Virus record (IMG/VR): IMGVR_UViG_3300043436_002834
Span: 20,843-84,842 of that record
Strand: one strand, 5' to 3'
DNA: 64,000 nucleotides
Origin: a virus
Of the stretch, positions 21,756-56,700 are shown one piece after another; the first letter of the stretch is position 1, and every line of letters starts with the position of its first letter. Below the pieces are notes generated by a model. That model searched no databases and was not told the DNA's origin. It worked only from the letters and a program-made list of their open reading frames with translations. The translations under genes were made by a program, and so were the position numbers.

Positions 21756-21797
21756 AAAATGGAGAATGGAGGCTTTCTCTATTCTCCATTTTTTTTA
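21756..21797 (+). terminator. Rho-independent terminator after 524-aa gene
   Basis: AAAATGGAGAAT (21756-21767) and ATTCTCCATTTT (21781-21792) form a perfect 12-pair stem, with further pairs closing a small loop. T residues run from 21789 to 21796. It lies 20 bases after the stop and is among the strongest terminators of the window. Confidence 0.92.
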
Positions 21798-23333: not shown

Positions 23334-23846
23334 ATGGGAAAGCCAACAAATACTAAAAGAGCCGGATGTGCTGTAACAACAAGTAATTGTGTTGTTTGGC
23401 AAGGACCTGATTTATGTTGCATTGATTTGTGTCATGGTGATACAATTAGCGATGTAATAAATGAAATTGCAAAAAAGATTTGTAAGATCTTTGAAATGTT
23501 AAATGTTCAAAGTTATGATCTATCAGAACTTATTACAACTGAATGTCCTCCTGCAAACTTTGTAGAATTAATTCAATTATTAATTGATCAAGTTGCAGCA
23601 ATTAAAAATAATCCTGCATCTGGTGTTGCCGGTGCAAGTGGATGTCCAGATTGTGAAATTGCTACTGCTGCTTGTTTTCATGAAAGATACGGAACTGTAT
23701 TGCAATTAACAGATTATGTTACTGCAATTGGAACTACTTTATGTGAACAGCAAGTAGTAATTCAAACACAAAATAATGCTATTGCTCAATTGACTATTCA
23801 GTTAGCAAACATGCAAACTCAGTTGAACTTATTAATTGGAGGATAA
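23334..23846 (+). CDS. Cys-rich protein with C-terminal coiled coil (170 aa)
   Basis: A 170-residue protein with 11 Cys, among them NCVVWQGPDLCCIDLCHGD near the N-terminus and SGCPDCEIATAAC in the middle. The last 45 residues (VVIQTQNNAIAQLTIQLANM and onward) form a clean coiled coil with hydrophobic heptads, suited to trimerisation. The layout of a Cys-rich head followed by a trimer stalk fits a fibre component. Its stop overlaps the next gene's ATG. No family name can be given. Confidence 0.6.
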   Translation: MGKPTNTKRAGCAVTTSNCVVWQGPDLCCIDLCHGDTISDVINEIAKKICKIFEMLNVQSYDLSELITTECPPANFVELIQLLIDQVAAIKNNPASGVAGASGCPDCEIATAACFHERYGTVLQLTDYVTAIGTTLCEQQVVIQTQNNAIAQLTIQLANMQTQLNLLIGG

Positions 23847-24586
23847 TGAAAAGAAAATGCACCCCAATAAATAATGCAATAACAATTAAAACTCCGGTTA
23901 CTTGTCCTGCACCAATTGCTCCTATAGTTGATGGTTGTGTAGATCCATTTACATATACTTGGAACATGGCGGTTAATCAAGCATTACTTGATAGCACATT
24001 TTCTGTAGGAGAATATTTTGATAGGATATTAGATAAAGGTTTAATGGCATCAAGTGCAACAAATGTATGTTGCCCTGATTGCATTGAAAATCCAATTTAT
24101 GTTTTAGCAAGTGTTGAATCATTTTTAAAATTAGCTGATTTTATGGGTTGGCTAAATGATGATACAAATCAACCATGTTGTACAAATATTCAAGCAAGTA
24201 TAGAAACTTATTTAAAATACAATGATGCTTGGCAAGTTGATCAACCAGAATGCTGTAAAACTGATTTTGAATCATGTTTAAATCAATTTTCAACTATTGT
24301 TAATTTAGATAGAATGATTGATAAAGGGATTGTGGAAGCAAATGGTTTTGATGGAAATACTTTGCTTTGCAAAATTTATGAATTGTTTGTTAATACTCCG
24401 GAAGATTTACTGCAAGGTGCAACATTATCAGATATATTTGATAGAATTTTAGATAAAGGTTTTGTTGCTTACTGTTGTGACTGTAATGTAATTATTGGTT
24501 CAATTGAAACATTTTTAAAATGGTGGGACGCCACAGGCGGATGTGGAACAGTGGCATTGCCAGCACCAGCACCAGCACTAGGATAA
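23846..24586 (+). CDS. Cys-rich repeat protein, paralogue A (246 aa)
   Basis: A 246-residue protein with 16 Cys in recurring double-Cys motifs (CCPDC, QPCCTN, PECCKTDF, YCCDC). Two segments repeat within the protein: FDRILDKG occurs at about residues 54-61 and again near 206-213 (DIFDRILDKGFVA), and S-x-E-[ST]-[FY]-L-K occurs three times (VESFLKL, IETYLKY, IETFLKW). The next gene is a diverged copy with the same order of motifs. Repeated helical units, each with a Cys pair, could be linked by disulfides or bind metal. It is part of the virion-type Cys-rich block; function unknown. Confidence 0.65.
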   Translation: MKRKCTPINNAITIKTPVTCPAPIAPIVDGCVDPFTYTWNMAVNQALLDSTFSVGEYFDRILDKGLMASSATNVCCPDCIENPIYVLASVESFLKLADFMGWLNDDTNQPCCTNIQASIETYLKYNDAWQVDQPECCKTDFESCLNQFSTIVNLDRMIDKGIVEANGFDGNTLLCKIYELFVNTPEDLLQGATLSDIFDRILDKGFVAYCCDCNVIIGSIETFLKWWDATGGCGTVALPAPAPALG

Positions 24587-24597
24587 ATTAAAAGAAG

Positions 24598-25263
24598 ATG
24601 AGTTGTAAAAAATGTAAAACAAGTAAATGCTCATGTGAAACTACAATTTGCACAAATCCTTTGATTTATGCAATGAAAAGTGTTTTTTCATTAGTTGATG
24701 GTAATGCAAATTTACCTACTGTACTTTCTGATGTTTTAACTGGAGGAATATCTATTTCAAATAACAAAAATCTTTGTTGTCCAGATTGCAAGAATGGAAT
24801 TTACTTTTTAGGAGGTGCAGAAAATTTTATAAATTTATACAATACTACAACAACAAGAATATGTTGTTTAGAACACGCATCCGCTGTAGAAACTTGGTTA
24901 ACGGTAATAGAAGCAACAGGAAATAAATACGGATGTTGCAATACTGATTTTAATGAAGCATTTCAACAATGGTTTGATGCATCAAGTTCGTCAAGTGCTA
25001 ACTTTTACTTAGATGATTTAGTAGAATTAGGTATTCTTGAATCTTCCTCATTTAATGGGTACAGCGGGCTAGGTATTTTATTTAACTATCTTCAGCTGAA
25101 CCATCCGGAACTAACTCCTGAAAATTATTTAAACATTTTAAGCGTTATTGTAAATTTAGGACTTGTTATTCAATGTAACGGTTGTGAAATTGTAATAGCT
25201 TCTGTAGACACATATTTAACATGGGTTGAAGCTATTGGTGGCGGAGGCGGAGTACCTGCATAA
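24598..25263 (+). CDS. Cys-rich repeat protein, paralogue B (221 aa)
   Basis: A 221-residue protein with 14 Cys. The N-terminus, MSCKKCKTSKCSCETTIC, is a tight CxxC cluster. The body follows paralogue A: CCPDC with a following AENFINLY, CCLEHASAVETWL, CCNTDFNEAF, then VELGILESSSFNG, and finally CNGCEIVIASVDTYLTW. The shared order of motifs shows duplication, while low identity elsewhere shows age. It ends in a GGGGG run before the collagen-like genes. Likely another component of the same surface or fibre structure. Confidence 0.65.
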   Translation: MSCKKCKTSKCSCETTICTNPLIYAMKSVFSLVDGNANLPTVLSDVLTGGISISNNKNLCCPDCKNGIYFLGGAENFINLYNTTTTRICCLEHASAVETWLTVIEATGNKYGCCNTDFNEAFQQWFDASSSSSANFYLDDLVELGILESSSFNGYSGLGILFNYLQLNHPELTPENYLNILSVIVNLGLVIQCNGCEIVIASVDTYLTWVEAIGGGGGVPA

Positions 25264-25287: not shown

Positions 25288-26322
25288 ATGGGATGTTCAT
25301 CTTGTCAACAAAATAATCATGTAGTACCAAGTACACATGTACACAATCCAACTGCACAAACTCATTGTGAATGTGCTTGTGGTTGTGAGGAACCGGTGTG
25401 TCCTACACCTCAGCCTTGTACTGAGATTACAGATAGCAAATGTATCATTTATACTGATGCTCCTATTAAGTGTGGAAATAACGTTGTTGTAACCACTAAT
25501 GCTAGTGTTTCTACAGCTCTAAACCAAATTACAAACTTTTTTTGTGGTTTAGCAGGCTTAGTAACAACAGCGGATATACTTTGCGGGGACACTGTAATTG
25601 TACCTGCAGGAAGTTCAATTCAGGCAGCTTTTGAATTAACAGTACAATTTATTTGTAGTATTCAATTAACCCCGGGTCCACAAGGTCCTGCTGGCGCTCA
25701 AGGTCCCGTAGGAGCAACTGGTGCAACTGGTGCTACTGGACAGCAAGGTCCAATTGGTTTAACTGGCGCAACAGGTCCACAAGGCCCGATAGGATTAACA
25801 GGACCCGCTGGAGCAGCAGGTTTATATTCACAAACTAGAAGTTCTACTCCTGTGACTAATGCAACAGGAATGGCTTCATTAATTGGTCTTGGTTCAGGAA
25901 CATTAAGTGTACCAGCAAATGCTTTTCAAGTAGGTGATTCTTTTAAAGCTACATTACATGGACAAGTTACATGTGCAAATAACCAACAATTAAGGGTTGT
26001 AATTTTTTCTAATGGTAATATATTAGCCACTACACCTTTGATTGTATTGCCGCAAATTACAGGAAAACACTGGACATTAGAAATTGATTTTGTTATTCGC
26101 GCAATTGGCGGTCCGGCAACTGCAGTTATTATGACAGGAGGTAATTTCATTTACAATAAAGATTCTAATAATGTCTATGAGGGTGTTGGTTTTAGATTTG
26201 AACAAGCTACTTTATTTGATACAACTGTATTAAACACATTGACTATTGAAGCTGAATGGGGAACGGTTAATGCAGCGAATTCTATCTACAGCGAAATTTT
26301 CAATTTATTTAAAACATTCTAA
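25288..26322 (+). CDS. Collagen-like fibre protein 1 (344 aa)
   Basis: A 344-residue protein in three parts. The N-terminal half (about 1-128) is Cys-rich ([29 protein letters not shown]) and contains two similar strand/helix units ([16 protein letters not shown] and [17 protein letters not shown]). The middle (about 131-180) has 16 uninterrupted Gly-X-Y triplets ([19 protein letters not shown] type). The C-terminal 165 residues are strand-rich with no Cys, probably a trimeric globular tip. Collagen triplets in phage fibres form triple helices. The Cys head could lock three chains or bind metal. It would act as a virion fibre. Confidence 0.8.
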
Positions 26323-26324
26323 GC

Positions 26325-26822
26325 ATGTGTGTAAATTGCGGAAATAATCATTGTGCTGGAAATTGCCAAGTACTTCCTAAAGGTTTAAGAGGACCTAGAG
26401 GATACAAAGGCGATAAAGGAGATAAAGGAGATCAGGGTCCTATTGGATTAACTGGTCCGCAAGGCCCTGCCGGAAATCCTGGCACTAACGGTGCTTCTGG
26501 TCTTCCTGGCGGTGTTGGACCTCAAGGTCCTATTGGACCCATTGGACCACAAGGGTTACCTGGACTTCCTGGAGCAAATGGGATTAACGGTACTAATGGT
26601 TTAGATGGAGCTCCGGGTCCTGCCGGCAATGCAGGTCCACAAGGAGATCAAGGTTATTCAGGTAGAGGTGTAGCTGTATTTACACAAGCTAGTCAACCTA
26701 CCGCAGCTGACTTTAATACGTCTTATGGTTCTGTAGATGGATTTGGTGTTAATTATGTACCAGGTTCGGGAAACAATGCTATCCGTCCAGGAGATATCTG
26801 GATTCAATCTTGTACACCTTAA
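26325..26822 (+). CDS. Collagen-like fibre protein 2 (165 aa)
   Basis: A 165-residue protein consisting of a Cys-cluster start (MCVNCGNNHCAGNCQ), then 31 uninterrupted Gly-X-Y triplets (about residues 20-113, from GLRGPRGYKGDKGDKGDQG to GDQGYSG), then a short C-terminal cap ending in DIWIQSCTP. It is the longest collagen run in the window. The four Cys in the first 15 residues resemble the N-termini of the neighbouring collagen genes, as if a shared anchor. It starts two bases after the first collagen gene's stop and is followed directly by the vWA-type gene. Confidence 0.82.
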   Translation: MCVNCGNNHCAGNCQVLPKGLRGPRGYKGDKGDKGDQGPIGLTGPQGPAGNPGTNGASGLPGGVGPQGPIGPIGPQGLPGLPGANGINGTNGLDGAPGPAGNAGPQGDQGYSGRGVAVFTQASQPTAADFNTSYGSVDGFGVNYVPGSGNNAIRPGDIWIQSCTP

Positions 26823-26823
26823 T

Positions 26824-28542
26824 ATGAGCGGATTTAAAATTTTTGATGGTACAAACTGGGTTGATCCTTGTAATTGCAATATTAGCATCTTAGATGTTGA
26901 TGGTGTAACTTATAAGTTAATTAATCCGCATAACTGTATTGTTAGTTATTTTGACGGAACTAATTGGTGTCCGATAACTTGCCCTTGTGAATGTCCTTCT
27001 GGATATACATTTAATGCAAGCACCAATTCATGTGAAGCTGTAGAAATAAGTCCTGCAACACCATCAGGCGGAACAACTGCTCCTGTAGTTGCAGGTAATA
27101 CAAATACAGGTTATTCTGAATTTGGAGCCAGGCTTTATGAAAACATTACAGGTTCTGTATATCCTCTTAATGGTTGGCAAAATACAACAATTTGCACTAC
27201 CTGTTCTACAGGTTACCAAGTTCTTGAAAACGCAGGTACTGGATCTGCATTAGCCATTCAGCAACTTTCTGCAGTAGATAGCGATATCTTTAATTCACAA
27301 GGAACTACAACTTTAGGAAGACTTAATAATACAGGTCTGTGGGCTACAGGATTTCCTAATAATCAATGGTTAAATGTAGAATTTTGCATAAACATTGCAG
27401 AAACTAAAACATATATATTTGCATTAGCTGGCGATAACCAAGTTAAAGCTGATATTACATCAACTACTTTTAATGGAGGTGGAACATTTAACTTAGTAAA
27501 TTTATGGGCATCAGACAGTCCAACAGGATTGCCTGCAAGTATAACAACTATGCCACATAAGTTATGGCACATGTTTCCTATTACATTGCCTGCGGGATCT
27601 CATACATTAAAATTATCAGGATATAACTTTGCTGCAGATAAAGCATTTGGTGCAGAAATATATGATATTTCTGAATTAGACATGACTGGTTTGATGACAT
27701 CATCTACAGCAACAGTTGGTGATCTACAACCTTATATTTTATTTTCAACAGAAAGTTTAATTACAAGTCCTCCTTTGCTTATTCCGATGCCGGGACAAAC
27801 AATTACATGGTCTTGTCCTTCAGGTAGCACATACAGTCTTTGTTATGGTGCACCATCTTGCATTACGGTTGATTCTATTCCATGTGGTAATCAACAACCT
27901 TTAACTATCAATACCGAAGTTAATATTTGGTTTGATAATTCAGGATCAATGAATACTACAAGATTGGGTCTTGAATTAATGCAAGCACAAGAACTTAAAA
28001 CTGCGTTGCTTCCTATTTTTAATTATGATGAAACCTTGTACAATAAAAGAGTAAAACTCTTTGATATGAATGGTTCATCATGGAATTATAATCAGAGATT
28101 TATTAAATGTTTGGCAGAAGAAAGAAATTTTCAAAGAACTCCAGACACAGATGTAAATCAAGTAATCAATCTTGTTTTTACAGATAGATCCGTTATCTAT
28201 GGTTATGGTTCTACTGAAGAATTTGATAACACTGCTAGAGAAGAGCAATATGACTTAGATGTAGATGATTTAAGAAATGTTATGGCTACTGCAGGTTATG
28301 ATATTAAAGGAACCGTGTTTAGAATAAATAGTGATCAAAATAGTTATGTTGGGTTTAGAACATTAGTTCAATCTACTTTTGTAAACAATCAAGCATATAC
28401 TAAACCTTATAATTTAAATGATTTTTATTCATTAAACTTTAACTGTAATTTAGATACTATGGCTGCAGATAAATCATCCTATTATAAGGATCAGGTTGTT
28501 GCTGCATTAAGAGCTTTAGATATTGTTGTGCCAGTTGTATAA
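26824..28542 (+). CDS. vWA-domain virion protein with adhesion-type modules
   Basis: A 572-residue protein from ATG 26824, one base after the preceding stop; a longer frame into the collagen gene is rejected. The N-terminal part (1-75) has FDGTNW repeats (8-13 and 43-48) and Cys clusters (CNC, CPCECPSGY). A Ser/Thr/Gly-rich linker leads to a carbohydrate-binding-like beta domain (about 100-300). The last 210 residues form a von Willebrand A-type domain: strand then D371-N-S-G-S375 (MIDAS DxSxS), helix, a second metal-loop candidate at T453-D454, then NVMATAGYDIKGTVFRI. Such domains bind a metal and a protein ligand. The gene lies between collagen-like genes, hinting at an attachment structure. 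MIDAS reading is direct; role is inferred. Confidence 0.72.
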   Translation: MSGFKIFDGTNWVDPCNCNISILDVDGVTYKLINPHNCIVSYFDGTNWCPITCPCECPSGYTFNASTNSCEAVEISPATPSGGTTAPVVAGNTNTGYSEFGARLYENITGSVYPLNGWQNTTICTTCSTGYQVLENAGTGSALAIQQLSAVDSDIFNSQGTTTLGRLNNTGLWATGFPNNQWLNVEFCINIAETKTYIFALAGDNQVKADITSTTFNGGGTFNLVNLWASDSPTGLPASITTMPHKLWHMFPITLPAGSHTLKLSGYNFAADKAFGAEIYDISELDMTGLMTSSTATVGDLQPYILFSTESLITSPPLLIPMPGQTITWSCPSGSTYSLCYGAPSCITVDSIPCGNQQPLTINTEVNIWFDNSGSMNTTRLGLELMQAQELKTALLPIFNYDETLYNKRVKLFDMNGSSWNYNQRFIKCLAEERNFQRTPDTDVNQVINLVFTDRSVIYGYGSTEEFDNTAREEQYDLDVDDLRNVMATAGYDIKGTVFRINSDQNSYVGFRTLVQSTFVNNQAYTKPYNLNDFYSLNFNCNLDTMAADKSSYYKDQVVAALRALDIVVPVV

Positions 28543-28552
28543 AAAATAAGAT

Positions 28553-29053
28553 ATGAGTTGTAGTTGTAAAGGCGCATGTGAATGCAGTAGTCATGAAGTT
28601 AAACTAAGAGGTCCTCGTGGATTTAAAGGAGACAAAGGGGAACCTGGTGTAGCCGGTCCTCAAGGAATTCAAGGTCTTGTAGGTCCCGTTGGACCCCAAG
28701 GACCTGTTGGTCCTCAAGGGCCTTCAGGAATGACAACTAACCAACTTGCTGTAAAAATTACACATGTTGGCGGACAACTGAAAGCTAATGTATATGGAGG
28801 AATTGGTACCGTTACTTATGCATGGGAAATGGCTGATGTATTGGTAATGAATAATGCATATCATTACTTTCAGTTTAATACTCCAATAAATATACAAACA
28901 GTTGGCGTTTCTTTAACTAACTTTACACCTGCGTTTAATGGTTGTAATGCAACTAACAATGCGCAAATAGGAATGGCCAAGGTAACAGTAACAGATGCAA
29001 CCGGCAGAAAAGCTATTGATACATTCTTACTTTTGAATGTGAATTGTGCTTAA
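28553..29053 (+). CDS. Collagen-like fibre protein 3 (166 aa)
   Basis: A 166-residue protein with a Cys-rich beginning ([16 protein letters not shown]), 13 Gly-X-Y triplets (about residues 21-59, [19 protein letters not shown] and on to GPQGPSG) and a strand-rich C-terminal 105 residues ([20 protein letters not shown]), which may be a small immunoglobulin-like or jelly-roll tip. The N-terminal Cys pattern CxCxxxCxC is close to the other collagen genes and to the tiny 46-residue protein. It ends the block, with a terminator about 50 bases after its stop. Confidence 0.8.
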
Positions 29054-29664: not shown

Positions 29665-30336
29665 ATGGTTACAATTAGAGAAAGTATTTCTAGAATAAGA
29701 AATGTATTCAAATTAGTTAATGAAGATGCTTTTTTAACCGATAGGTTCATTTATAGTCTTTTAATCAAACATGCTAAAACATTAATCAGAAGACAAGATG
29801 TAGAAAACAAGTTGATGCAATATGACAGTTTGTTTGAAACATTACCTTTTGTTGAACTGATTGAAGTAGATAAAATTGAAGCTGACTGCGCTAGAATTAA
29901 AACTGGCTGCAAGATAATGCGAACTAAAAAAAAGCTTCCTAAACTAATGACAGGCAGCAATGGACCAATTCTAAGAACAGTTGCTCCTATAGATGGAAGT
30001 GATGTATTCCAACAATGTTTAGCTGCCGTATATGTAGCTATGTCTCAATCTACAAATTTTAAATACAATAAGTGTCATTACTTCTGGTATAAAAACGGGT
30101 ATTTGTATTTTCCAGATATTGTATGGGATGCAGTATCGGTAGAAGGAATGTTTGAAGAACCTGTAGATGATTTTTGTAATGAGAATGATTCTGAATGCAC
30201 ATTAGCTCAAGATAGAGATTTAACAATTCCTGATTATCTATTTACTGAAATTGAACAATTAACTCAACAAGAGTTAATGACATTAGGTAAAATTCCATCT
30301 GATACTGGAGATAATTCACAAAACATATTGAGATAA
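29665..30336 (+). CDS. Head-tail connector (ring) protein 2
   Basis: A 223-residue protein beginning MVTIRESISRIRNVFKLVNE, with a helical first third, a short strand segment (FVELIEVDKIEADCARIKTG), a basic loop and a mixed C-terminal region with YFWYKNGYLYFPDIVWDAVSVEG. I recall very similar strings (ADAFLTDRFIYSL, RRQDxENKLM, LPFVELIEVDKxEA) in a conserved structural protein of crAss-like phages, one of the ring proteins between portal and tail hub. It sits between the basic 163-residue gene and the 324-residue connector, one base from the latter. Confidence 0.7.
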   Translation: MVTIRESISRIRNVFKLVNEDAFLTDRFIYSLLIKHAKTLIRRQDVENKLMQYDSLFETLPFVELIEVDKIEADCARIKTGCKIMRTKKKLPKLMTGSNGPILRTVAPIDGSDVFQQCLAAVYVAMSQSTNFKYNKCHYFWYKNGYLYFPDIVWDAVSVEGMFEEPVDDFCNENDSECTLAQDRDLTIPDYLFTEIEQLTQQELMTLGKIPSDTGDNSQNILR

Positions 30337-30337
30337 G

Positions 30338-31312
30338 ATGCAAAATACATTTTTGAATTATAGAACTTATGATCAGTTATTGGCGGAGATCCAATCTGAT
30401 TTTAAAAAATACTATCTTGAAGATTTTATTAATCCTCAAGAGTTTATTAAAGTAGCTAAGCGTTGCAACTATGAATTAGGTCTTAGAATATTTAAGACTA
30501 AAGAAATTGTTCTTGATATAGAAAAGGGTAGAGCTAAACTGCCTAATAACTTTCAAGTATTAAACTTTGCTTTTATTCTTGCTGATCATTATACAGTTGA
30601 ACCATTAATATCAGGAACTCATGTTGAAAATGTAAACTTAGGTCCTGTATACAATCCTGGTAACTGGAATGATGTAGATCTTTGTTCTCCTGCTACTGTT
30701 CCTCATCAACCTGAAAACAAACCGTGTAATGTACCTCATCCACATTCTTGTGGTAGTTGTGGTTCTAAGTTTGAATCATGTACATGCAAACCCGTTGGCG
30801 ATGTTAAACTAGATTGCAAAGGAAACTTTATGGTGCTTACACAACACTTTAAGTATCATACAAGAAGATGGAAGACTATGCATTCTTTAAGAATAATTAA
30901 TAGTCCTGATGTAGTTGATGCTGATTGTCCAAACAAAACTTGGCAGTCTGCAAATACAGCTTATATTAAAAATGGTTTTATCTATCCATCATTTAAAACA
31001 GGTAAACTATACATCAACTATCAATCAATGATGGAAGATGAAGATGGCAACATCTTAGTTCCCGATCATGATATGCTAAATGAGTTCTACGAATATGCTA
31101 TTAAGCAAAGAGTTCTAGAAAACATGATTATGAATGGAGAAGCTGTTAATGGTAATCAAATTCAAATTATTGAACAACGCCTTAGAGCTGCTAGAAACAA
31201 TGCATTTAGTTTGGTAAATACTCCAAACTTTAGTGAATTAAGAAGAATTTGGGAAGTTAACCGTAAAGCTCAATACCACAACTTCTACAATATGTTCTTA
31301 TCTTATAGATAA
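30338..31312 (+). CDS. Tail tubular / connector protein (324 aa)
   Basis: A 324-residue protein starting MQNTFLNYRTYDQLLAEIQS. The first helices (YDQLLAEIQSDFKKYYLEDF and INPQEFIKVAKRCNYELGL), then strand-rich NNFQVLNFAFILADHYTVE, and a late helical part (YEYAIKQRVLENMIMNGE) are arranged like tail tubular (P22 gp4 / T7 gp11-like) proteins that line the tail channel. The middle has a Cys/His group (HPHSCGSCGSKFESCTCK) that looks like a zinc ribbon insert. It is five bases upstream of the tail hub gene. Assigned by order and pattern in the crAss-like tail module. Confidence 0.65.
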   Translation: MQNTFLNYRTYDQLLAEIQSDFKKYYLEDFINPQEFIKVAKRCNYELGLRIFKTKEIVLDIEKGRAKLPNNFQVLNFAFILADHYTVEPLISGTHVENVNLGPVYNPGNWNDVDLCSPATVPHQPENKPCNVPHPHSCGSCGSKFESCTCKPVGDVKLDCKGNFMVLTQHFKYHTRRWKTMHSLRIINSPDVVDADCPNKTWQSANTAYIKNGFIYPSFKTGKLYINYQSMMEDEDGNILVPDHDMLNEFYEYAIKQRVLENMIMNGEAVNGNQIQIIEQRLRAARNNAFSLVNTPNFSELRRIWEVNRKAQYHNFYNMFLSYR

Positions 31313-31317
31313 TAGTT

Positions 31318-34300
31318 ATGGCAAAGAAATCACCAGCAGGAGGCAATACATTTAAGTCTCGTGGAACTTTTGATAAGTCACTTGTAACTGATACAAGTGA
31401 TTTTCATTTACCGGAGAATTCATGGACATATGCAAGAAATGCTATTAACAATACAAGAAAAGGAGATTTAGGTAAACTTAGTACTGAGCCGGCTAATGCT
31501 TTATGTACTTTTGCACCCTACACAATTATTGGAGCAATTCATATTGAACAAGATCAATGGTTGTTGTTTTCTACTAATAATACAGATTCTGAAATTGGTA
31601 TTTTTAAAGAAGGTAGTTGCTCCTACAGCACAGTTGTAAATGATCCTTGTCTTAATTTTAATACAGATAATCTTATTAAGGGGATTATAAGACCAACATT
31701 TAATTGTTCTTTTAATGCTTACTGGGATGACGGCAGAAATGTTTCAAGAGTACTGGATATTAAAAATGTTCCATGGAAACAAGTATGTACAACCACAAAT
31801 GGCTGCACTACATGCGTTGACACAACAGATCTTGATTGTGATAAGATAAGACTTGAGTCTTTCATAGAAACACCTTGTATTCAAATAAAAAAAGGTAAAG
31901 GTATTGGTAGCATACTTAATGGCACTTACCAAGCGCAGATTGCTTATTTAGTAGATCAGCAACGAGTAACTGACTACTTTATCCCTTCTAATGCATTAAC
32001 TTTATTTGATCATACAAATGTTAATAGCTCAATAGAATTAAATCTTAGCAACCTAGATACAAACTTTGAAGATTATGAGTTGGTATTGATATCTACAATT
32101 AATGAAAAGACTGTAGCTAGAAAGATGGGTATTTATAGTACCCGTCAAACTCAAATATCTTTTGATTACATTGATATTACTTTACCGGTAGTTCCTTTAG
32201 CAGATCTTACTATTATTACTCCGGTTCCAGATAAATCAGAAGCCATGTTTACTGTAGGAAGCTATGCATTGCGTGTAGGTCCTACAACTAAATTTGACTT
32301 TAATTACCAACCACTTGCTAATCAGATTTCAACTCTTTGGCAGTGTGTAGAATACAAAAAAGAGTATTATAAAAATGGGGGAACTAACATTGGATATATG
32401 CGAGATGAGGTCTACTCATTTTTTATCCGATGGGTGTATAACACTGGAGACAAATCTAAAAGTTACCACATTCCAGGAAGAGCAGCTGAACAATTTTATT
32501 TGACAAATGATGCGGGAGCTAATGCAGGTTTAATATCTGAAACAGCAATTTGTCCTGCAACAGTCAATGACATAGAAAGTCCTGACTATACTCCTAAAGT
32601 ATTTGAAGTTTACAATACAGCTACTATATCATCTACACCAAATACAGTATTGGCTGATGGCGGGGTTTTAGTGGCAGAAGGTAAAATGGGTTATTGGGAA
32701 TCTGTTGAGAACTATGATGACAATAATCCTATTGTTTGGAACTCAAATGTACCTGGTCATCCAGAATGGAATCTTTGCGGGCAGCCTATTAGACATCATA
32801 AATTTCCAGAGAATACTATTATTTCCGGGGGAGCCATAGATACTATTACCAATCACTATGTTGATGGTGGTGAAAAAATTAGAATCATGGGTGTTGCTTT
32901 TGATAATATTCAGCCTCCTGTAGATAATAATGGCAACCCAATTACTAATATTGTTGGGTATGAAATTCTAAGAGGAAATAGAACAGGTACTAAAAGTGTA
33001 TTGTATAAAGGTATTATCAATAACATGTTTGAATATAATGCTCCTGATTTAATTACAGGCAAAACAGCATTGTATGCTAACTATCCATTTAATGATTTAA
33101 GACCGGATCCATTTATTTCTTCTAATGCTTTACCGACTAGTTATGAACCACTTCAAGGTGGTTTAATTAACTATACACCTAATGCAGATTATAGCAAGAA
33201 ACATTTTACATTTCATTCACCAGATACAATGTTTGCAAGACCATTTTTGGTTGATGATGAAGTAAAAGTATATGGTACCTCTTATGGCACATCTAATGGT
33301 TATTATATTGAACCTGATAATCATCCAAGACATAAATTTATAACTGATATTTCTTTTGCTACATCAATTATTGTGGGTGTAGGATTTGCCATTTCTAAAA
33401 TGGTAGGTAGTAGAGATACTAAGTATGTAGGTTATCAAATAGACAGCGATCAAATATTTGCAGGAACATCTACATCACCGGGTAACGTAGTGCCTGCTGG
33501 TGCGGCTTTAACTGCAGCACAAGCTACCGCTCTAAACACATTAGGTATTCAAGGAATGACAGATGCATTTACCGGTCAGAATACCGGTTTAGCTTCTGCT
33601 ACAAGCGGTGCACAAAATGGCGCCATAGCTGCTTCTAAAGTTGCTGCGTCAATTCCTGCAACAGGTATAACATCAGGTTATGTTGAGATCTCACTTAAAG
33701 ATCAAGATGCAACACCAGGTATTTTAAAGACGGCCTTGTTGGCTTTAGGAAACCCTATGTTCCAATCATATTTAGCTGATGGTACAGATACAACTATTAA
33801 GTTAATTCAATCATTAGGATCTTGGAGACAGTATGCTGTGCAGTATCAGTCACTCTGTAGATATGAAAATTTTGCGGGTCCTGCAGCTAAAAATAGAAGA
33901 AGAAGAGTTAATGATGCAAGGTATTTAAATCCAGGTGTACAAGATTACTCAACTAACTTTATAGTAAATCACATTAACAGGAATGAAACTGTAATGTTTG
34001 ATACTACTGTAGATATTGAGAATGTACCTTCTGCTTATGCTGATGTATCCCGTCCTCCGCGTATTTCTCAATTACCAGGAGGAGCTGAGTTTAATACAAT
34101 TAACAGAAGAGCATCTTCTCACTATGTAGCTTTAAAAACAAGATTGCGTAACCAATATGGTCAATTGCAATCTATCAGACAAGTGATGGTTTCTTCTTGT
34201 GTGACTCCAATAACATACACTAAGTCACCTACTTTATTTGGAGGAGACATTTATATTGGAAAGTATTCAGAAAAAAACACTTTATACTATTTCCAACAGT

Positions 34301-36237
34301 GGTTAAATGGACAACCAGATGGTGCTGTATTTAATTACAATAAACAAAAGATGTTTGAGTGGACTGCATTTTGGATGGATACTGATCCATTTGATTTGGC
34401 TGAGTTTATTCAAAGTATTCCTACAGCTCTACAGAATGCTATTACAGGAGGTACAGTAAACTCATTCTTGGCATCATTGGTTACACCAAGCGATAAACAC
34501 TGCTTAGATAGATTAAATCCGCACAACGGACAAGCAAATGGTATATTCTTGTTAAAGAGAGCCTTTATGTATTTGTTTAATTCTGGCGTAAGAGATTTCT
34601 ATGTAGAGTCAGAGTTTAATATTGATATGCGCGATTGGCAAGATAATGTAGCAAAAAAACATTATCCAATTCTTGCAGATCTTAAAACAATGTTTGGAAT
34701 GGATTTAATTAAAGCTGATAACTATTATCAAATAGATAGAAGCTTATCTCATTCATTTATGGCAAGTCAAAAAATACCTTGGGGTATAATGCAAGAAAGA
34801 GATTATGATCCACAATTATCTGAAACTTGTTATACTAAGTTTCCTCGCAGATTACTATACTCATTACCTCAAGTTGCCGCTCAGCAAAATGTATCACTAC
34901 TTAAAAAAGATAATTGGAGAGTATTCTTACCAAATAACTTTGCTGATTATGAAAGTGCAATTACAGCTATAAAACCAATTGATAAAACAGGAGCTCTTAT
35001 TTTGTTTGAAAATCAAGCTCCTGGTTTTTTACCAGGTGTTGATGAACTACAAACTCAAGGTGGTGCCGCTGTTACTATTGGTGATGGTAAATTATTTGCA
35101 AGAAAACTTCAACAGTTATCTAACTCTGAAACATCTTATGAGTATGCTTCATGCCAAAGCAGATTGTCTGTATTAAATACCCCGGCAGGTGTCTTTTGGA
35201 TGAATCTTAATCAGGGTAAGATATTTAATTATGCAGGCGGTCTCAAAGAGATTTCACTTAAAGGAAACCGCTTTTGGTTAAACAACTATTTACCATACAA
35301 ATTACTTGAAGATTTTCCTACCTATTCGGTATTAGATAATCCTGTAGCTGGTATTGGTTGTCAGACAATTTATGATAATGAGTACAGTTTAGTTTATTTC
35401 TGTAAGAAGGATTATAAGCTAAAGAAAAATCTTCCTGTTACAGTAGAATATATTGGCGGATCTAAGTTTTTAATTAATGGCATATTTGTAGCTCAAACAG
35501 GAGATCCATTATACTTTGATGATTGCTCTTGGACATTAAGTTATGATCCTAAGATTGAAGAGTTTGTTTCATTCCATGACTGGCATCCAGATTTATCTTT
35601 AGGAGCAAAGAATACTTTCTTGACAACTAAGGATAATAGCATTTGGAATCATAACAATATCTGCAGCAAGTATTGTAATTACTATGGTAAGGATTATCCT
35701 TTTGAGGTTGAATTCCAATTAGATAATAAGTTTTCTGTAGCTACAATGCGCAATGTTGAATACTACATTGAATCATATATTTACAATCCAGAAAACTGCT
35801 ATGACCGTTTTCATGTATTAGATTATGGATTTGATGAAGCAATTGTATATAACTCAGAGCAAGTATCCGGTCTTTTAAAACTTCACTTGAGTCCTAAGAA
35901 TGATATTCCTTTGTTACTTACATTCCCTAAGATTCAGACTAATTACATTGATATTCTCTTTTCTAAAGAAGAGCAGCAATACAGATTTAATCAGTTCTGG
36001 GATGTTACAAACGACAGAGGTGAATATTCAAATGCGCAAGAAACTATATGGCAAACCGAAGATAATGGCTACATTAGAAACCTGAATCCAAATAACTTAA
36101 ACTATAATAAGCAGGAGTTTCAAAGAAAAAAATTCCGCCATTATAATAACCGAGTTATTTTAAGAAGAAGCAAAAATACTAATGTAGAAATCTTGGTAAG
36201 TTTAGCTGCAAGTAACCAGCAACTATCTCACCGATAA
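31318..36237 (+). CDS. Tail hub / stabilisation (muzzle-type) protein
   Basis: A very long, strand-rich protein of 1639 residues. The N-terminus has FDKSLVTDTSDFHLPENSWTY followed closely by ARNAINNTRKGDLGKLSTEP, a pattern I recognise from the conserved crAss-like tail stabilisation protein (P22 gp10-related), which forms the large hub or muzzle at the tip. The region near residues 15-110 looks like the beta-propeller-like start of that family. Several Gly/Tyr/Trp-rich strands follow, and a helical part lies near 820-960. The C-terminus is basic and Asn/Arg-rich (NRVILRRSKNTN). It would cap the tail and carry fibres. It is the last gene of the connector operon. Confidence 0.75.
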   Translation: MAKKSPAGGNTFKSRGTFDKSLVTDTSDFHLPENSWTYARNAINNTRKGDLGKLSTEPANALCTFAPYTIIGAIHIEQDQWLLFSTNNTDSEIGIFKEGSCSYSTVVNDPCLNFNTDNLIKGIIRPTFNCSFNAYWDDGRNVSRVLDIKNVPWKQVCTTTNGCTTCVDTTDLDCDKIRLESFIETPCIQIKKGKGIGSILNGTYQAQIAYLVDQQRVTDYFIPSNALTLFDHTNVNSSIELNLSNLDTNFEDYELVLISTINEKTVARKMGIYSTRQTQISFDYIDITLPVVPLADLTIITPVPDKSEAMFTVGSYALRVGPTTKFDFNYQPLANQISTLWQCVEYKKEYYKNGGTNIGYMRDEVYSFFIRWVYNTGDKSKSYHIPGRAAEQFYLTNDAGANAGLISETAICPATVNDIESPDYTPKVFEVYNTATISSTPNTVLADGGVLVAEGKMGYWESVENYDDNNPIVWNSNVPGHPEWNLCGQPIRHHKFPENTIISGGAIDTITNHYVDGGEKIRIMGVAFDNIQPPVDNNGNPITNIVGYEILRGNRTGTKSVLYKGIINNMFEYNAPDLITGKTALYANYPFNDLRPDPFISSNALPTSYEPLQGGLINYTPNADYSKKHFTFHSPDTMFARPFLVDDEVKVYGTSYGTSNGYYIEPDNHPRHKFITDISFATSIIVGVGFAISKMVGSRDTKYVGYQIDSDQIFAGTSTSPGNVVPAGAALTAAQATALNTLGIQGMTDAFTGQNTGLASATSGAQNGAIAASKVAASIPATGITSGYVEISLKDQDATPGILKTALLALGNPMFQSYLADGTDTTIKLIQSLGSWRQYAVQYQSLCRYENFAGPAAKNRRRRVNDARYLNPGVQDYSTNFIVNHINRNETVMFDTTVDIENVPSAYADVSRPPRISQLPGGAEFNTINRRASSHYVALKTRLRNQYGQLQSIRQVMVSSCVTPITYTKSPTLFGGDIYIGKYSEKNTLYYFQQWLNGQPDGAVFNYNKQKMFEWTAFWMDTDPFDLAEFIQSIPTALQNAITGGTVNSFLASLVTPSDKHCLDRLNPHNGQANGIFLLKRAFMYLFNSGVRDFYVESEFNIDMRDWQDNVAKKHYPILADLKTMFGMDLIKADNYYQIDRSLSHSFMASQKIPWGIMQERDYDPQLSETCYTKFPRRLLYSLPQVAAQQNVSLLKKDNWRVFLPNNFADYESAITAIKPIDKTGALILFENQAPGFLPGVDELQTQGGAAVTIGDGKLFARKLQQLSNSETSYEYASCQSRLSVLNTPAGVFWMNLNQGKIFNYAGGLKEISLKGNRFWLNNYLPYKLLEDFPTYSVLDNPVAGIGCQTIYDNEYSLVYFCKKDYKLKKNLPVTVEYIGGSKFLINGIFVAQTGDPLYFDDCSWTLSYDPKIEEFVSFHDWHPDLSLGAKNTFLTTKDNSIWNHNNICSKYCNYYGKDYPFEVEFQLDNKFSVATMRNVEYYIESYIYNPENCYDRFHVLDYGFDEAIVYNSEQVSGLLKLHLSPKNDIPLLLTFPKIQTNYIDILFSKEEQQYRFNQFWDVTNDRGEYSNAQETIWQTEDNGYIRNLNPNNLNYNKQEFQRKKFRHYNNRVILRRSKNTNVEILVSLAASNQQLSHR

Positions 36238-45952: not shown

Positions 45953-48900
45953 ATGTCAGAAATTAAAAAACCAGTAGAAATTGAAGATAAATTACAATCA
46001 ATTTCTAATAAAGTTAATGCAGAAACATTACCAAAAATTACCAATGCTTATAATGCAGGTAGAGCTCAGGACTTTTCTGCAAAGCAAGCTAATCTTGCTA
46101 AGTACGCGTCATATGGTTCTCAAACATTTGGTAAGCTAGGATTTGATCCATATAAATCATCTAATACTGCAGGTAAAAGCGGAATGGATGAGTTGTATGA
46201 TACTAAAACAAGCTGGACTTCTGACATTGGTCGTGCATTTACAGGTATGCAAAAACTTGCAGGTATTGGTATACAAGATACTTTTGCCTTAGGTGCTTTT
46301 GCTGATCAAGGAAACTATTTGACTTTTGAAGATACAATGAATAAGTATTCTTCAACTAGAGGTGGTGTAACTGGATTTGTAGCTAACACAATGACATCTG
46401 CAGGATATACAGTTGGTATCATTGCGGGTATTGCTGCTGAAGAAATGGCATTAGCTGGTATTACAGCATTATCTGGAGGTACGGCTGCACCGGGTACAAT
46501 TGCTGCAGGCGGAACATTATTGGCTAGAGGAGTTGGTAAACTTAAAGAAGCCGGAAGTATGCTTAAAGCTGTAAACAAATTGCAAGATTTAAATACAGCT
46601 AAAAGTTTTATGGGTGCCACCGGTAAGTTTGTTGGAGGTAGTTTAAAAAGTTTTGGTAAAGCTTTAAATCCATTAGAAAATACTTATGATTTTTTAAAAA
46701 CAATTGATAAGCTTGAAGACTTTAATGGTTTAAGACAAACAGCAATTGGAGCTGGAGCTATAGTTAGAGATGCTAGAAAGATTACTATGGCGCATAGTGA
46801 ATCAAAACTAGAAGCTGATCTTGCTGCTAAAGAATTTAAGCAACAAATGTTTGATGACTATTATTTAGATAAAGCAAACATTGGTACAACTATACCTGAT
46901 TCATATTTAGATACTATTGAAAATGAGGCGCAAAAGGTTAAAGACCGCGTGTACTCATCTAACTTTGGCTTAATCTATGCAACCAATGCAATTACCTTTG
47001 ATAACATGTTTAAAAACATGAAAGGTACTAACCGTTGGGCAGGTATTGCTAATGATGCATATAGAGTAAGTAGAAAAGAAGGTACAAAAGTAGCAGTTGA
47101 TGCATTAGCTAAAACATTTGGTAATGCCGTAAGAAAAAAGCTAAGCACCATTACATTAAAAAGTGCTATGAATAGCGCTCTTTCTAGTTCAATGGAAGGT
47201 GTACAAGAGCTTGGTCAAGATATGATCTCAGAATCAATGAAATCATATCATGCGCGAAATGTTAAAGGAACTCAAGTCCGTGGAGGTATGTTAGAATATC
47301 TTCACAATGATTTATCTAAAGCGGCTTCTAAACAGTACAGTGAAGAGGGAGCAATTACTTTTCTTTCTGGAGCATTAATGGGTGTATTTGCTTCACCTGC
47401 AGGATTTGCTGTAGGGCAAGTTAATAATTTTGTAGCTGGAGGCGGTGCTCAAAAAACTTATCAAAGAGTATTTGATAACAAAAAATGGCAAGCAGAAAAA
47501 ACATCTTTAGAAATTAAGCGCAAAGAAAAAACTAAAGTATTAACTGAGTTTTTTAATAATAGCAAAAATTTTATTGATGGTTTTTCTAAACCTATATATA
47601 CTCTAAATGAATTGCAGGAAAATATGCTGCAAGCTGCAGAAAATAAAAATAGCATGCAGTTTAAAAATGGTCAACATGATTCATTTGTAACTGGAGTACA
47701 TACTTTATTAGAAGCTGGTTTAGAAAATGAATTTGCGGAACACTTAGAGTACATGGCTAAAAACTTTGGTGCTCAAGAACTAAATGAAGTATTTGGTAGA
47801 ACTGATATAACTGAAGAAACAAAAGCAGAGTATCAGGAAAAATTACAAACGCAGGCCAGTAATGTAAAACAATTGCGTGCTAAGTATAATGAAATTCAAG
47901 AAACTGTAATTAATCCACATAAAATGAAAGGTGTTAAAACCACCGATCCTGATTATTTGGAAAAATTTATTAAGTATACTTCTGTAGAAAATCTTAAAAG
48001 AGAATTACTTTTTTCTGATTCTAAAATAGCAGATCGCGCTAATAGAATTAAAGCTCTTGAAAAAGATATTAATGAAAGCAATCCTTTATCATCTTTAGAA
48101 ATAAATGCTTTACTAAATTCTGATGCTTTACAACAACAGATAGGTTTATTACAAGCTGAAGTAGAAGCAAATAAAACATTAACATTAACTGGAGCGGGTA
48201 AAGAAAGTGCTAATAAAGCTCAAGCTAAATTAGATGCTTTTAAAGCATATCAAGAAAAGTTAAAAGCATTTACAACAGAACAACAAAAAGCTGAGGGTTC
48301 TATTTATGAATCAGATGCTTATGAAGATTTATTTGAGGCTTACAATAACTTAATGCAGACATATGGCAAGAATACATTGTCTAACCAAGATGCACAGTTA
48401 CAAGCTAATAAAAAACAGTTTGATAAAGTATTTGATTACATTTCACTAGGTGAAGAAAATAAAATTTATCAAGAGTTTGTAGATACTTTATTAAATCCTT
48501 CTGGAGCAAGCGCGTATCTTAAAGGGCAAGAAGATTTGCTTAAACGATTAGATGACAATAAAGCAGAGCACATTGAAAATGCATTAAAAGCTTTTGAAGA
48601 AAAATCAACAGCTGATGATATGCTTAATGCTTTATATGCAGAAGGTTTATTTTTTGATCTTAATGAGTTGGATGATTTGATTAAAAACCGAATGATGCCT
48701 TCTCAAATTTATGATATTGCTGACAACAATAAAGAGGCTACTCCAGAACAAGTAAAAATTGCACAACAGATAATTAATAAATTTATTGTCCGTCTAACAG
48801 GTAAATCAATTGTTAATGATAAGACTACTTTAAACAAACAAGGGCGTAAATTAAAATCTGATAAAAGAACTGTAGCAGGTATCTTGCGTCAGTATGGAAT

Positions 48901-51900
48901 CACCCTTAATAAGGAGATCAAACTTTCTTCTAAAGCTGGCCAAAGATTCTTAGACAAGTTAATGGCTAAGGAAAACAAATACCTTACTAGACTTGATAGA
49001 GAAATTCTTGCTAAGCTTGGTGATCAGGATGTAACAATTAAGTTTATTACAGATGGAACTCTTCCAGTACAAATGGATGAAAACGGAGTTCTCTTAATGG
49101 ATTTAAGATTTGCAGGTAGAGATTATACTAATTCAGTCATGTCAATAGAAAACATGATTGTGACTGGTTTAACTCAAAATAAAATTGCTGAGGAATTAAG
49201 AAATAATGATAACCTTTGGTTGGCTGCAAGGAATGCAATGGAACAAGCTAAAAGCGCATTTCAAGCTACTTTCCCGGCACAAAACATTGATGAGGTAGAA
49301 ATCTTTGATGATCCTGTTTTGTTTCTTACAGAAGCAATGAATGACATTCAGTTTCAAAAGTTCCTTGCTCAAATAGAAGACAACATTCAACCTGCATCCA
49401 AATCTTTGTGGAGTACCCTTATGACGGGTATCAAAGAAATTGTAAGTGAAGAGTTTGACAAAAGACTTATTAATCGCGTTATTAATATATCAGCTAAAGC
49501 TTTAGATAGCAAGATTGTAGATAACATTGCTGAAGAAGAAACTGATACTAAAGTAACAGAAGCAGAAAAAACAGAAGCTAGAGCAGAAAAGTTTGATGAA
49601 CTTACTAGTTTAGCCAAAGAACTTGCATTACGCTGGAATGTAAATGTTAAAATTCTTAACTCTCAAAAAGAAGCTGAAGACATTTTAAACAAAATCCAAA
49701 ACCCATTTTTTCAAAAGTTTAATACTATTCTTGGTGATTTATTATATGGACCAACAGGACCGGGTATTATTAATTTAAGAAAAGGTGTTGCTGACGTAGC
49801 TCTTTCTGATTTGTTGAAATCAGTCTATGAAAAATCAGAATCATTATCTGAGTTAATTCAAAATTTAAAAGAACTATCAGTTTATCAAACTAACGGTAAA
49901 GTTGGTGAAATGGTTAACTGGTTAATTGATAATGCAGATAATATTGGTGATGGTATTGAGATTGTAAAAAACATATTCTTTCAAGCAGAAGGTCAAACAA
50001 CTGCAGGATTTTATGATGAGAAAACAAATACCGCATATATAGTTGCAGATGCTGTAAAAGCAAATACTCTATATCATGAAATGTTTTTGCATCCATTTTT
50101 AATTAACTTAGAAAAAACTAATCCCGCTTTTTATAAAAGACTGGTTGATGAAGCTAAGCAAAATGCAGAAGCAGTAGCATATGTTGAAGCCAATTATGGT
50201 CCTGTAGATCAAATTGGTGTCAGACAATATGAACACGAACTTGTTGGTAGAGTCTATGATCAATTTGTCAATAATGAACTTAATCAGGCAGAAAACCAAG
50301 GTTTATTAAAAACACTAGGGCAATTTATTAAGCGCATGTTTGCTAGTGTTGCTGAATACTTTGGCATTGCTAAAACTGACATTAAAAGATTTAATGAAAA
50401 GAAAACAACTATTGCTGATCTTGCTAAAGTATCTGTAAGAGAAAAAAGCAAGGTTGATTTAGGAGCTGTTATTGAAGCAGATAGTGTAATATCTGGTACC
50501 CCTGCAGCTAAACCTAAAACAAAAACAACTACTCGCCAAAGAGTTATTACTAAACAGCAATTAGTAAATACAGGGGGGAATGTTGTTATGCTAGATAACG
50601 CATCTGATAATCCAGAATTATTTGCTGATTTTTTACATCCAGAAATAGTATCAACAGATAGAGTTGCTACAGAAGAATGGACTAATAAAATAGTTAGTTT
50701 AGGTCAAGAATTAGATCAAGCTTCAGATGTTGATATACAATATGGTTCTATTAGAGCACAAGTAGATGGAAGATTAATAATTGATGTTATTGCTAATGTA
50801 AATGGCAAGACTGTTAAATTTTTAATGTATAAATCTACAGGCAAAGGAACTACTCTTAATACAAAAGGTGAGTGGGTTCCTTTATTAGCTATAGGAACAT
50901 TACCTGGTGGAGCAGAATGGTTTGTAAAAAGTTTATATAAAGGAACTGATCCAAAAATTAATAAATATGGCAGCGAAACTTTTTTATCAATTAATAATGA
51001 TTTAAAAGCTAAAGAGTCTGAATTATTTACTGAACCTGAAAATTGGGTTAATCAAGAAGTTGAAGAAACTATTACAGAAGAAGTTGAAGAAGTAGAAGAA
51101 CCGGTAACCAGAGAAGAAAAAGAAGTTCTTAATGATGCTAAAAATATTCAATCTAGAATTGCTACAATTGAAAAAGAACTGGATGTTTTAAATAAACAAC
51201 TGGCTGATAATTCTTTATCTTTTGTACAAAAGCGTTCTACTAGAACTAAAGTTACTCAATTATCTATTGAGCTTAATGAGCTATATGATAAATTAAATGA
51301 TATTCAACCGGAGTTAGATGCTATTAAAGCAGCTGAAGTTGTTGAAGATCTTGATGCAGAATATATCCCTAAGCTTGATTACAATGATAATGAAATCATT
51401 ACCCATCAAACTCCATGGCCATCTGTTCCTAAAGATCTAAGAGAAGCACTTGCTATTGTTTATGGTAAGCCATTAACTAAATTAAACAATGAAGATGTAG
51501 CGGAGATTAGAAAGGAAATGAAATCTAATCCAAAATACATTAAAGTAATTAATGATTTTAGTGAAAACCGATTAAGAGAACAGGATCTGGTCAAAGGTCA
51601 ACAAGAGCTGGCTGAAAATCAAAAAAGAGTTGAAGCCAATAAAGCTGCGAGACAACAGCAAATTGCTGAGCAAAAAGAAGCAGACCGTCAAAGAAAAAAG
51701 CAAAAAGTAAAAATTCAAGCCCCTGTATCAGATGAGAATTTTTTAAAGAACTTACTACCTGATTTTGATTATTCTATTCTTACTGAGAAAGAAATTAAAA
51801 TGCTTGTCAAAAAGTTTAAAGACAATAGCGATATAGTTCCTTTTACTGTTAATGACATCATTAGTTTTGTTGTAAACAAACAAGCTAAAGAGGATGCTAA

Positions 51901-53746: not shown

Positions 53747-53747
53747 G

Positions 53748-56700
53748 ATGAATATTTGTATTACACCAAACTCAATAAAGTTATTTGGATCATATATAAG
53801 CAGAAAATTACCAGAATATTTATCACAAGAAAAATCAGCTGAAGCATTATTGACAGATTTGTTCAATGATGCTTTAACTGTTTTTAGTGATAATGGTTTA
53901 AGCAATGACCGAAATAAAGAATTAGTCCTACAACATTTGAGCATTGTTCCTCAAATTGTTTTAAAGTATATTGCGGATAATCCAAAGATGGGTACTCCTG
54001 CATCTTTTGAAAAGTTTAAAGAATTATCTCAAGATGTAGTAACCGCAACTGAAGATACATCTAAGGATACCTTTCAGGCTTTAATAGATCGCTTTGGAGA
54101 CATTATTGGTAACACATCTATACAAGTAGAAGAGGGCAATCCATTAGATCGCTTTGAGGCAGTTTCTTTTGAGTTAATGAAAACCAGTAACCAAGAAGCT
54201 ATTTACAATCCACTATTGGGTTACTCAGAAAATATAACAGATCCTAAAAAGGTATTTGAATTTACAGTTGCTAGAAATGTTATTAAAAATGACAACAAAC
54301 TAAATCTTAGTTTTAGATTAACAACTTTGGGTGAGGTTATTAACAATTCAAAAGTTGTTAATACTACAGGAAGTGAAGATCCCAACTTGCCAATTTTGTT
54401 ATTAGTAGATTCTAAAAATGAAATTGCTTCTTTTGATGAAGCTGGTAATTTGGTTACAGATGGTAAAATTCCAGTGTATACCATTAAAACAGATAAGGTT
54501 TCTTTAGACTACCAAGTCAAAATGCTTACTGTACAAGAAATGGCTTATGACTCTAGCCTTTCTCAAAAAGAAGCAGCTGTAAAAGCACAGCAACAAGTAG
54601 ATCAATTTTTAGCATATATCAATGAGTCTCTTGCCAAAGTTAAAGCGGGTGATCAAGTTTATATGCGTATTGATTTAGATAAAAGTAATTTAGGCTTTAT
54701 TGCTCAGGATAGAAATAAAACAACAAATCTAACTGATATTACTAATATCAATGATGGAGCAACTGTTTTAGAACAAGGAGGAACTAACCTTCAATTTTAC
54801 CCAGTTATTGCTGTAGCCAATACTAACAAGACATTTAGAGTTTATGAAAAACCTTTGTCTTCATTAACCGATGAAGAATTTGAAACACTTCATTACTTAA
54901 TTTCACAAGATGAACTTAAAATTAAAGGTTATACCGCGGCTAATGCAAATGCATCAGGTGTGCGAGAAGCCTTTATGAATTTTTATATTGATAGTTATAA
55001 CAAGGGTCAATATAAAGACAGAAGCTTTTACTATTATGTTGAAGAATCAGTTGATGAAAAAGGTAAAAAAACAAAGACAAGAATGGTTAGATTGGGTAAC
55101 AATGAACCTATTCTTGCATCTACATTAACTTTAGCTCAACTTAAAGAATTTGCTAATCTTAGATTTTCCAAACCGGTTTCTGCTAAGGATTTAAATGCAA
55201 ATGCAACTAAACCTAAAGCTTCTATAAATGATGTTACCAATTTAGGTGAATACTTTTATGGTGAAGACGGTCAAGTATATGAAATGGTTGGACCAAGAAG
55301 ATCTTTTACAAACAAAAAAGATGCTTCAATGGATACTGTTATTTATAAAGTACCTGCAAGAATTGAAGATGGTCAACTTATTACAGGCGCTAGAACTACT
55401 ATTGGTGATCATGTTATCCAAGTAGGATATACAAACCTTGTTCCTACAGCTGAAGGCAAATTACAAGGGTTTGGTTCTTATTTAGGTTTTGCTCCAAGTG
55501 TGGTGGCATCTAATATAAAACCTAAGAGAGATATTAAATGGCGTAGTGTATCTGAAAGAAACCTGGCCACAGTGGCTTCAGATAAACAAAATGAAGCAGC
55601 ATTAGAATGGTGGAATAAAAGTCCACTAAGCAAGGTTATTACATTAAATAACATGCAAAATAAAGCAGCTGAGTTTGGACCAAACTTTGTTGCTAACTTT
55701 ATTGGTAATGCTATTAATCTTTATCAGGGATCTTCATCCAGTGATGTTTATCATGAGGCATTCCATGCTTTCTATGATGGTATTTTAACTCCTTCAGAGC
55801 GCAAAGAAATTTATGATACTTTAAGAGCAACTCCTGGTTATTTTACTACAGTAGTAAATGGTCAATCTAAATTGCTTTCTTATTCAGATGCTACTGATTT
55901 AGAACTAGAAGAATTTTTAGCTGAAGGTTTTAGAGAGTACGCGTTGTCTAATGGCAAGAAAACTAAATTTAGTGACAATAAGATTAAAGCATTCTTTCAA
56001 AAATTACTTAATCTTTTAAAGTCTGTATTTGGTAACATGACATATGCAGAGGCTAAAGCATTTAACAAAACAAATGCGATGGTTGATGTAATCTTTTCTG
56101 ATTTGTTTAAAGGAAACTTTACATCAGATATGTTTGTAGCATCTAATGAAGAAGCCAAATGGCGTTCATCAGAAGTAGAAACAACATCTGGTGATACTTT
56201 TACTTTAGAAGAAATGTATGATGCCATGACAAGTATGAAATCTGTATTTTCAGATTTTATTACTCAGGGTCTAAACTTTTCTCAAAACCAAAAGGATCAA
56301 GAACAAGCAGTTAGTTTGTTATTTGAAATGGCAGATTATGCTGAGTCATCTGATGAATATAAACAATTAGCAAATGATTTAAAACTACTTGATGAAAAAG
56401 GTAGTTCAGTTAGAACAGGTCAAGGTGTGTTTAACATTGCCGCTAATCCGCGCTTATTAAGTTTAGCTGTTGATTATGTCAAAGCTAGATTTGAACAAAG
56501 GCTCAATGATGTAAACAATAAACTTGAGTCTATTTCTAAAATTGAAGATAAAAATGCACAACAAAGAAGTGAAAGCACTGCGTTGGTATTTCAAAAACAA
56601 CTTTTAGAAAAAATACTAAACCCTGAAAATTTTGGCAAGCTATCTGATTTAAACAAAACAGCTAGATTAAAAGGTGAAGAGCAGATACCAAAATCTTTAA

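Follow-up and report, generated by a model that had tools for sequence, protein, structure and literature searches.

In crAss001, ring proteins form the tail barrel, and trimeric fibres are anchored at hubs through their N-termini; the docked fibres in turn carry further fibre proteins (PMC10172136). Collagen-like phage tail fibres (PF01391; PHROG tail fibre families 5073, 6320 and 366) are built on a Gly-X-Y shaft, and vWA or integrin I-type domains (PF00092, PF13519) carry a MIDAS with a DxSxS motif and a distal Asp. Among the tail fibres of eCIS, VWA (eBAP4) and collagen (eBAP3) are assigned to different fibre groups in the accessible part of one account (PMC12923769). Our literature search found no paper on collagen in crAss-like phages or on strand complementation in tail fibres, and no description of the shaft-joint-adhesin arrangement considered here was found in the literature searched.

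The locus under study has the tail backbone of R1, R2 and muzzle in common with crAss001, but its fibre genes lie just upstream of R2. Among 22 proteins of the crAss001 structural region, we detected neither a GDxW or DGTNW joint nor any Gly-X-Y run longer than 4 triplets. Like other collagen-like phage fibres it has a Gly-X-Y shaft, whereas its distal module is a protein of its own with a conserved split joint. The DxSxS motif, the distal Asp and a predicted alpha/beta fold recall the MIDAS domains, although the domain in the window is below Pfam detection and its profile-profile match is confined to the surroundings of DxSxSM. With eCIS, the locus shares a vocabulary of VWA and collagen-shaft domains in phage-tail-derived fibres; a split joint is not described for eCIS fibres in the accessible part of that account (PMC12923769).

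The window, by which we mean the whole stretch of 64,000 nucleotides analysed, spans positions 20843 to 84842 of a virus record of 84.8 kb in IMG/VR. It contains a match to the crassvirus capsid profile PF23898 (E=1e-27), and its portal and terL were matched by PHROGs. The genes for R2, R1 and a muzzle-like protein lie directly downstream of the collagen/adhesin block, the muzzle-like gene (31318-36237) being similar in length to that of crAss001 and in the same gene order. Judged from the capsid, portal, terminase and R1/R2 matches and a weak muzzle match, the window is that of a crAss-like phage. The initial annotation had placed a block of four genes at 25288-29053, and these coordinates are correct. 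The block and the tail genes that follow it comprise these features:

25288-26322, plus strand: colA, with a Cys-rich N-terminal domain, collagen and a variable C-terminal domain (PF01391, E=1e-8)
26325-26822, plus strand: colB, a collagen-like shaft with a Cys-rich N-terminus and a C-terminal joint domain (PF01391, E=6e-16)
26652-26819, plus strand: C-terminal joint domain of the shaft (GYSGRGVAVF...RPGDIWIQSCTP), with GDIWI at 26790-26804 and the tail Cys at 26811-26813
26824-28542, plus strand: adhesin gene, 572 aa, comprising an anchor, a possibly PA14-like middle domain and a vWA-like domain
26824-26973, plus strand: N-terminal anchor (KIFDGTNWVDPCNC), residues 1-50, with Cys16 and Cys18; putative second half of the joint
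27040-27858, plus strand: exchangeable middle domain, residues ~73-345, with a weak PA14 resemblance
27898-28539, plus strand: predicted vWA-like domain, residues ~359-572 (DNSGS, distal Asp454, AlphaFold2 model of the relative L146, Foldseek)
28553-29053, plus strand: colC, with a Cys-rich N-terminus and a variable C-terminal domain (PF01391, E=2e-7)
29665-30336, plus strand: homologue of ring protein R2 of the tail barrel (phmmer to crAss001 gp40, E=1e-10; phrog_9863)
30338-31312, plus strand: homologue of ring protein R1 (phmmer to crAss001 gp43, E=5e-6)
31318-36237, plus strand: muzzle-like protein (weak blastp match to crAss001 gp44, E=0.008; phrog_37948)

PF01391 scored above the Pfam cut-off in all three of colA, colB and colC. 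The three proteins had been credited with 16, 31 and 13 Gly-X-Y triplets; counted by eye, the uninterrupted triplets number 17, 32 and 14. The triplets of colA (~17) lie at about 25672-25821 and the 14 of colC at about 28610-28735. The N-terminal domain of colA is kept in relatives, while its collagen and C-terminus vary or are lost. The collagen stretch of colB (26382-26669) has exactly 32 uninterrupted triplets in 9/9 relatives compared (L005, L007-L014), although the collagen sequence diverges among these nine, and this fixed shaft length may be under selection. The shaft of L146 has a head of the type encoded at 23334-23846, and that of L160 has a colA-type head, which suggests that the N-terminal domains of shafts and fibres are exchanged between genes as interchangeable virion-attachment domains. 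A further collagen-like ORF (364 aa frame) lies upstream of the window in the same genome (contig G000, 13409-13960; L003, L004). Pfam matches to cEGF and Gas_vesicle covered 15-17 residues only and were set aside as chance.

The colB gene lies directly upstream of the adhesin gene and ends with TAA at 26820-26822. The ORF of the vWA protein had been started at 26737, too early and in overlap with the gene before it; the evidence favours the ATG at 26824, right after the colB stop, and the same start position is found in relatives. PA14 matched the middle domain at E=0.023 in 1 of 15 members, and a PDB profile search with this domain gave no usable match. The middle domain also occurs elsewhere, for instance at the C-terminus of muzzle-type proteins (L142, L145).

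The DNSGS sequence (27934-27948, residues 371-375) had been read as a MIDAS metal motif, and its conservation is more than chance: D371, S373, S375 and the distal D454 (28183-28185) are invariant in 22/22 diverse members, down to ~29% identity. At the MIDAS Thr position, most relatives have a candidate Thr and the window protein has Glu432. The vWA fold that the motif implied is predicted as well, since AlphaFold2 (27 rows) returned a high-confidence vWA-type alpha/beta domain of alternating strands and helices for the homologous domain of L146 (pLDDT ~90+). The model of the full window protein (7 rows) was of low confidence (pLDDT 41) and had the same order of strands and helices. Foldseek against the PDB retrieved integrin beta I, CMG2 and the 26S proteasome chain 4cr2_W, together with flavodoxin-type folds, none below E=0.0029; against viral models, it retrieved an entry named VWFA (E 6.7e-6). 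No Pfam, PHROG or PDB sequence profile matched the domain, Pfam vWA being found in none of 21 members, and hhalign to bacterial PF00092 members (probability 6, E 0.006) covered only the DxSxSM region. We term the domain vWA-like because the predicted fold and the motif fit, yet membership by sequence is not established.

The vWA domain was found at 63 IMG/VR loci, and removal of duplicates left 45 viral vWA genes, 12 with the anchor (including that of the window) and 33 without. In this non-redundant set, a collagen gene adjoins 12/12 of the anchor-bearing genes and 0/33 of the anchorless ones, a contrast that is partly phylogenetic because many anchorless genes belong to other phage groups. 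It is the N-terminal anchor of 50 residues (KIFDGTNWVDPC) that collagen linkage tracks, rather than the vWA domain. Linked vWA and collagen genes, which the initial annotation proposed to look for in other phages, are present in every anchor-bearing relative found. L152 and L153 each have the vWA domain at the C-terminal end of a muzzle-type protein and lack collagen in the vicinity. Searches for the vWA domain in 50,697 phage records found none, and a terminase control found 121.

In the reverse test, the 56-residue C-terminal domain of the shaft was used alone as the query and yielded 26 further loci, in which it always stands at the end of its gene. After GD[ILV]WI, no more than 8 residues remain at any of the 26 except L258, where there are 19. 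The next gene starts with the anchor, K-x-F-D-G-x-x-W or a close variant, in 26/26. What follows the anchor differs: vWA in 12/26 and other modules in 14/26; three of the shafts (L251, L255, L262) have no Gly-X-Y run at all. The constant element is the joint between shaft end and anchor start, whatever adhesive module comes after it. Unrelated phage ORFs hold both halves of this joint in one chain, as a GDxWI...YDGTxW motif (for example GDIWIDTSDPDMYGKNIYVFDGTNW), an arrangement to be expected of halves that form two neighbouring strands; the profile link of the shaft tail to this motif spans 16 columns only.

A Cys following GDxWI in the shaft tail is present at 21 of 27 loci compared and absent at 6. 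This Cys and the second Cys of the anchor were both present at the same 21 loci and both absent at the other 6, with 0 mismatches (Fisher 3.4e-6, uncorrected for relatedness). The Cys-less state occurs at no fewer than three places on the R2 tree, one of which (L263) is nested among the close relatives of the window. The match would be preserved under either paired transfer or paired change. Distances of the shaft domain and the anchor remain correlated once the R2 backbone is accounted for (partial r=0.72, 0/5000 permutations), a result to be read with the fact that adjacent genes can co-inherit without touching. AlphaFold2 on L146 read through its stop gave pLDDT ~30-50 over the joint and no confident strand pairing; because this model is uninformative over the joint, docking of the two chains is a step that we infer. 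PDB profile searches with the joint and with the single-chain motif gave no usable match.

Taken as a whole, these data are best explained by a modular tail fibre of two chains whose split connector bears exchangeable heads, a reading we hold to be reasonably probable. In this fibre, the colB product would trimerise into a collagen-like shaft, attached to the virion through its Cys-rich N-terminus. The shaft would end in a strand, GDIWI, and the adhesin would begin with another, KIFDGTNW, so that a small beta unit, which the unrelated phage proteins have as a single chain, would be completed by both chains together. Where each chain has an extra Cys, a disulfide may hold the joint together. 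The joint would carry exchangeable distal modules, here the possibly PA14-like middle domain and the vWA-like MIDAS domain, the latter likely serving as a metal-dependent contact with the host surface. The split joint seems to allow head swapping among related phages. The fusion of vWA or middle domains to the C-terminus of muzzle-type tail proteins and the position of the genes beside R2, R1 and muzzle also speak for the two-chain fibre. More tentative, with chances slightly below even, is the stricter proposal of a plug-and-socket joint, split exactly at the gene boundary and secured by a co-varying inter-chain disulfide lock, that mounts several adhesive heads, vWA-type and others, on the collagen-like shafts of crAss-like phages.

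Just as integrin I-domains bind collagen, the vWA domain might, according to the initial annotation, bind the collagen-like proteins in building the fibre. The vWA-like fold, the MIDAS residues and the physical linkage of the genes in close relatives agree with this, but as a reason for the linkage it fares badly and we regard it as very improbable: collagen is not adjacent to 33/45 non-redundant viral vWA genes, 14/26 shafts pair with partners lacking vWA, three shafts lack collagen and some vWA domains sit on muzzle-type proteins. vWA domains act in assembly machines, and the gene sits among fibre genes, so that the vWA-like protein might instead be an assembly chaperone or enzyme for the collagen-like fibres and not a virion adhesin. 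We judge that role improbable, given that the vWA domain is covalently part of the muzzle-type tail proteins of L152 and L153 and that the anchor protein can be without vWA altogether.

The boundary itself bears on two other accounts. Stop read-through or frameshifting could join shaft and adhesin in a single polypeptide, the joint never being split; the motif is indeed continuous across the gene boundary, and in several relatives a single stop separates two genes in the same frame. Across the relatives, however, the intergenic gap is anywhere between -4 and +13 nt, every frame is represented, the stops vary (TAA, TAG, TGA) and an ATG of its own opens each downstream gene. With the frame not conserved across the gaps, one fused product is unlikely, and we rejected this account as extremely improbable. 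The genes could also be mere neighbours encoding independent fibres or spikes, with the joint and the anchor each binding other virion proteins. The low-confidence joint region of the model, the lack of a structure with docking and the share of the distance correlation that adjacency alone can explain all leave room for this, and we consider it unlikely, though deserving of some weight. Against it stand the pairing of exact ends in 26/26, the Cys co-variation in 27/27, which recurs at several places on the R2 tree, and the existence of a single-chain version of the motif.

If the two-chain fibre is correct, the receptor-binding head could be located as the ORF that opens with a DGTNW anchor after a shaft ending in GDIWI, and a standard split connector would offer a testable mechanism for head swapping and receptor specificity in crAss-like phages.

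Elsewhere in the window, a 17-bp hairpin followed by T-rich sequence (21756-21792) lies in the gap before 21808 and is terminator-like. Cross-comparison with relatives marks 23846-24586 and 24598-25263 as tandem paralogues, Cys-rich with CCPDC motifs and ~30% identical. At 45953-63998, after the muzzle and cargo-position genes, lie two giant ORFs (2597 and >3417 aa), the first without a PHROG match; their position suggests crAss RNA-polymerase proteins.

An integrin-like MIDAS domain placed on a phage tail would predict metal-dependent host binding. The vWA-like domains of the distant relatives L227 and L231, at about residue 840 of 1200-aa proteins, have naturally lost the MIDAS (WYSSLGNM and WYSSFGNM) and provide a natural test of metal dependence. 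The same vWA-like domain is also present in a 1575-aa bacterial protein of a Verrucomicrobia MAG (L177, 5199-9926), the only match in GTDB genomes.
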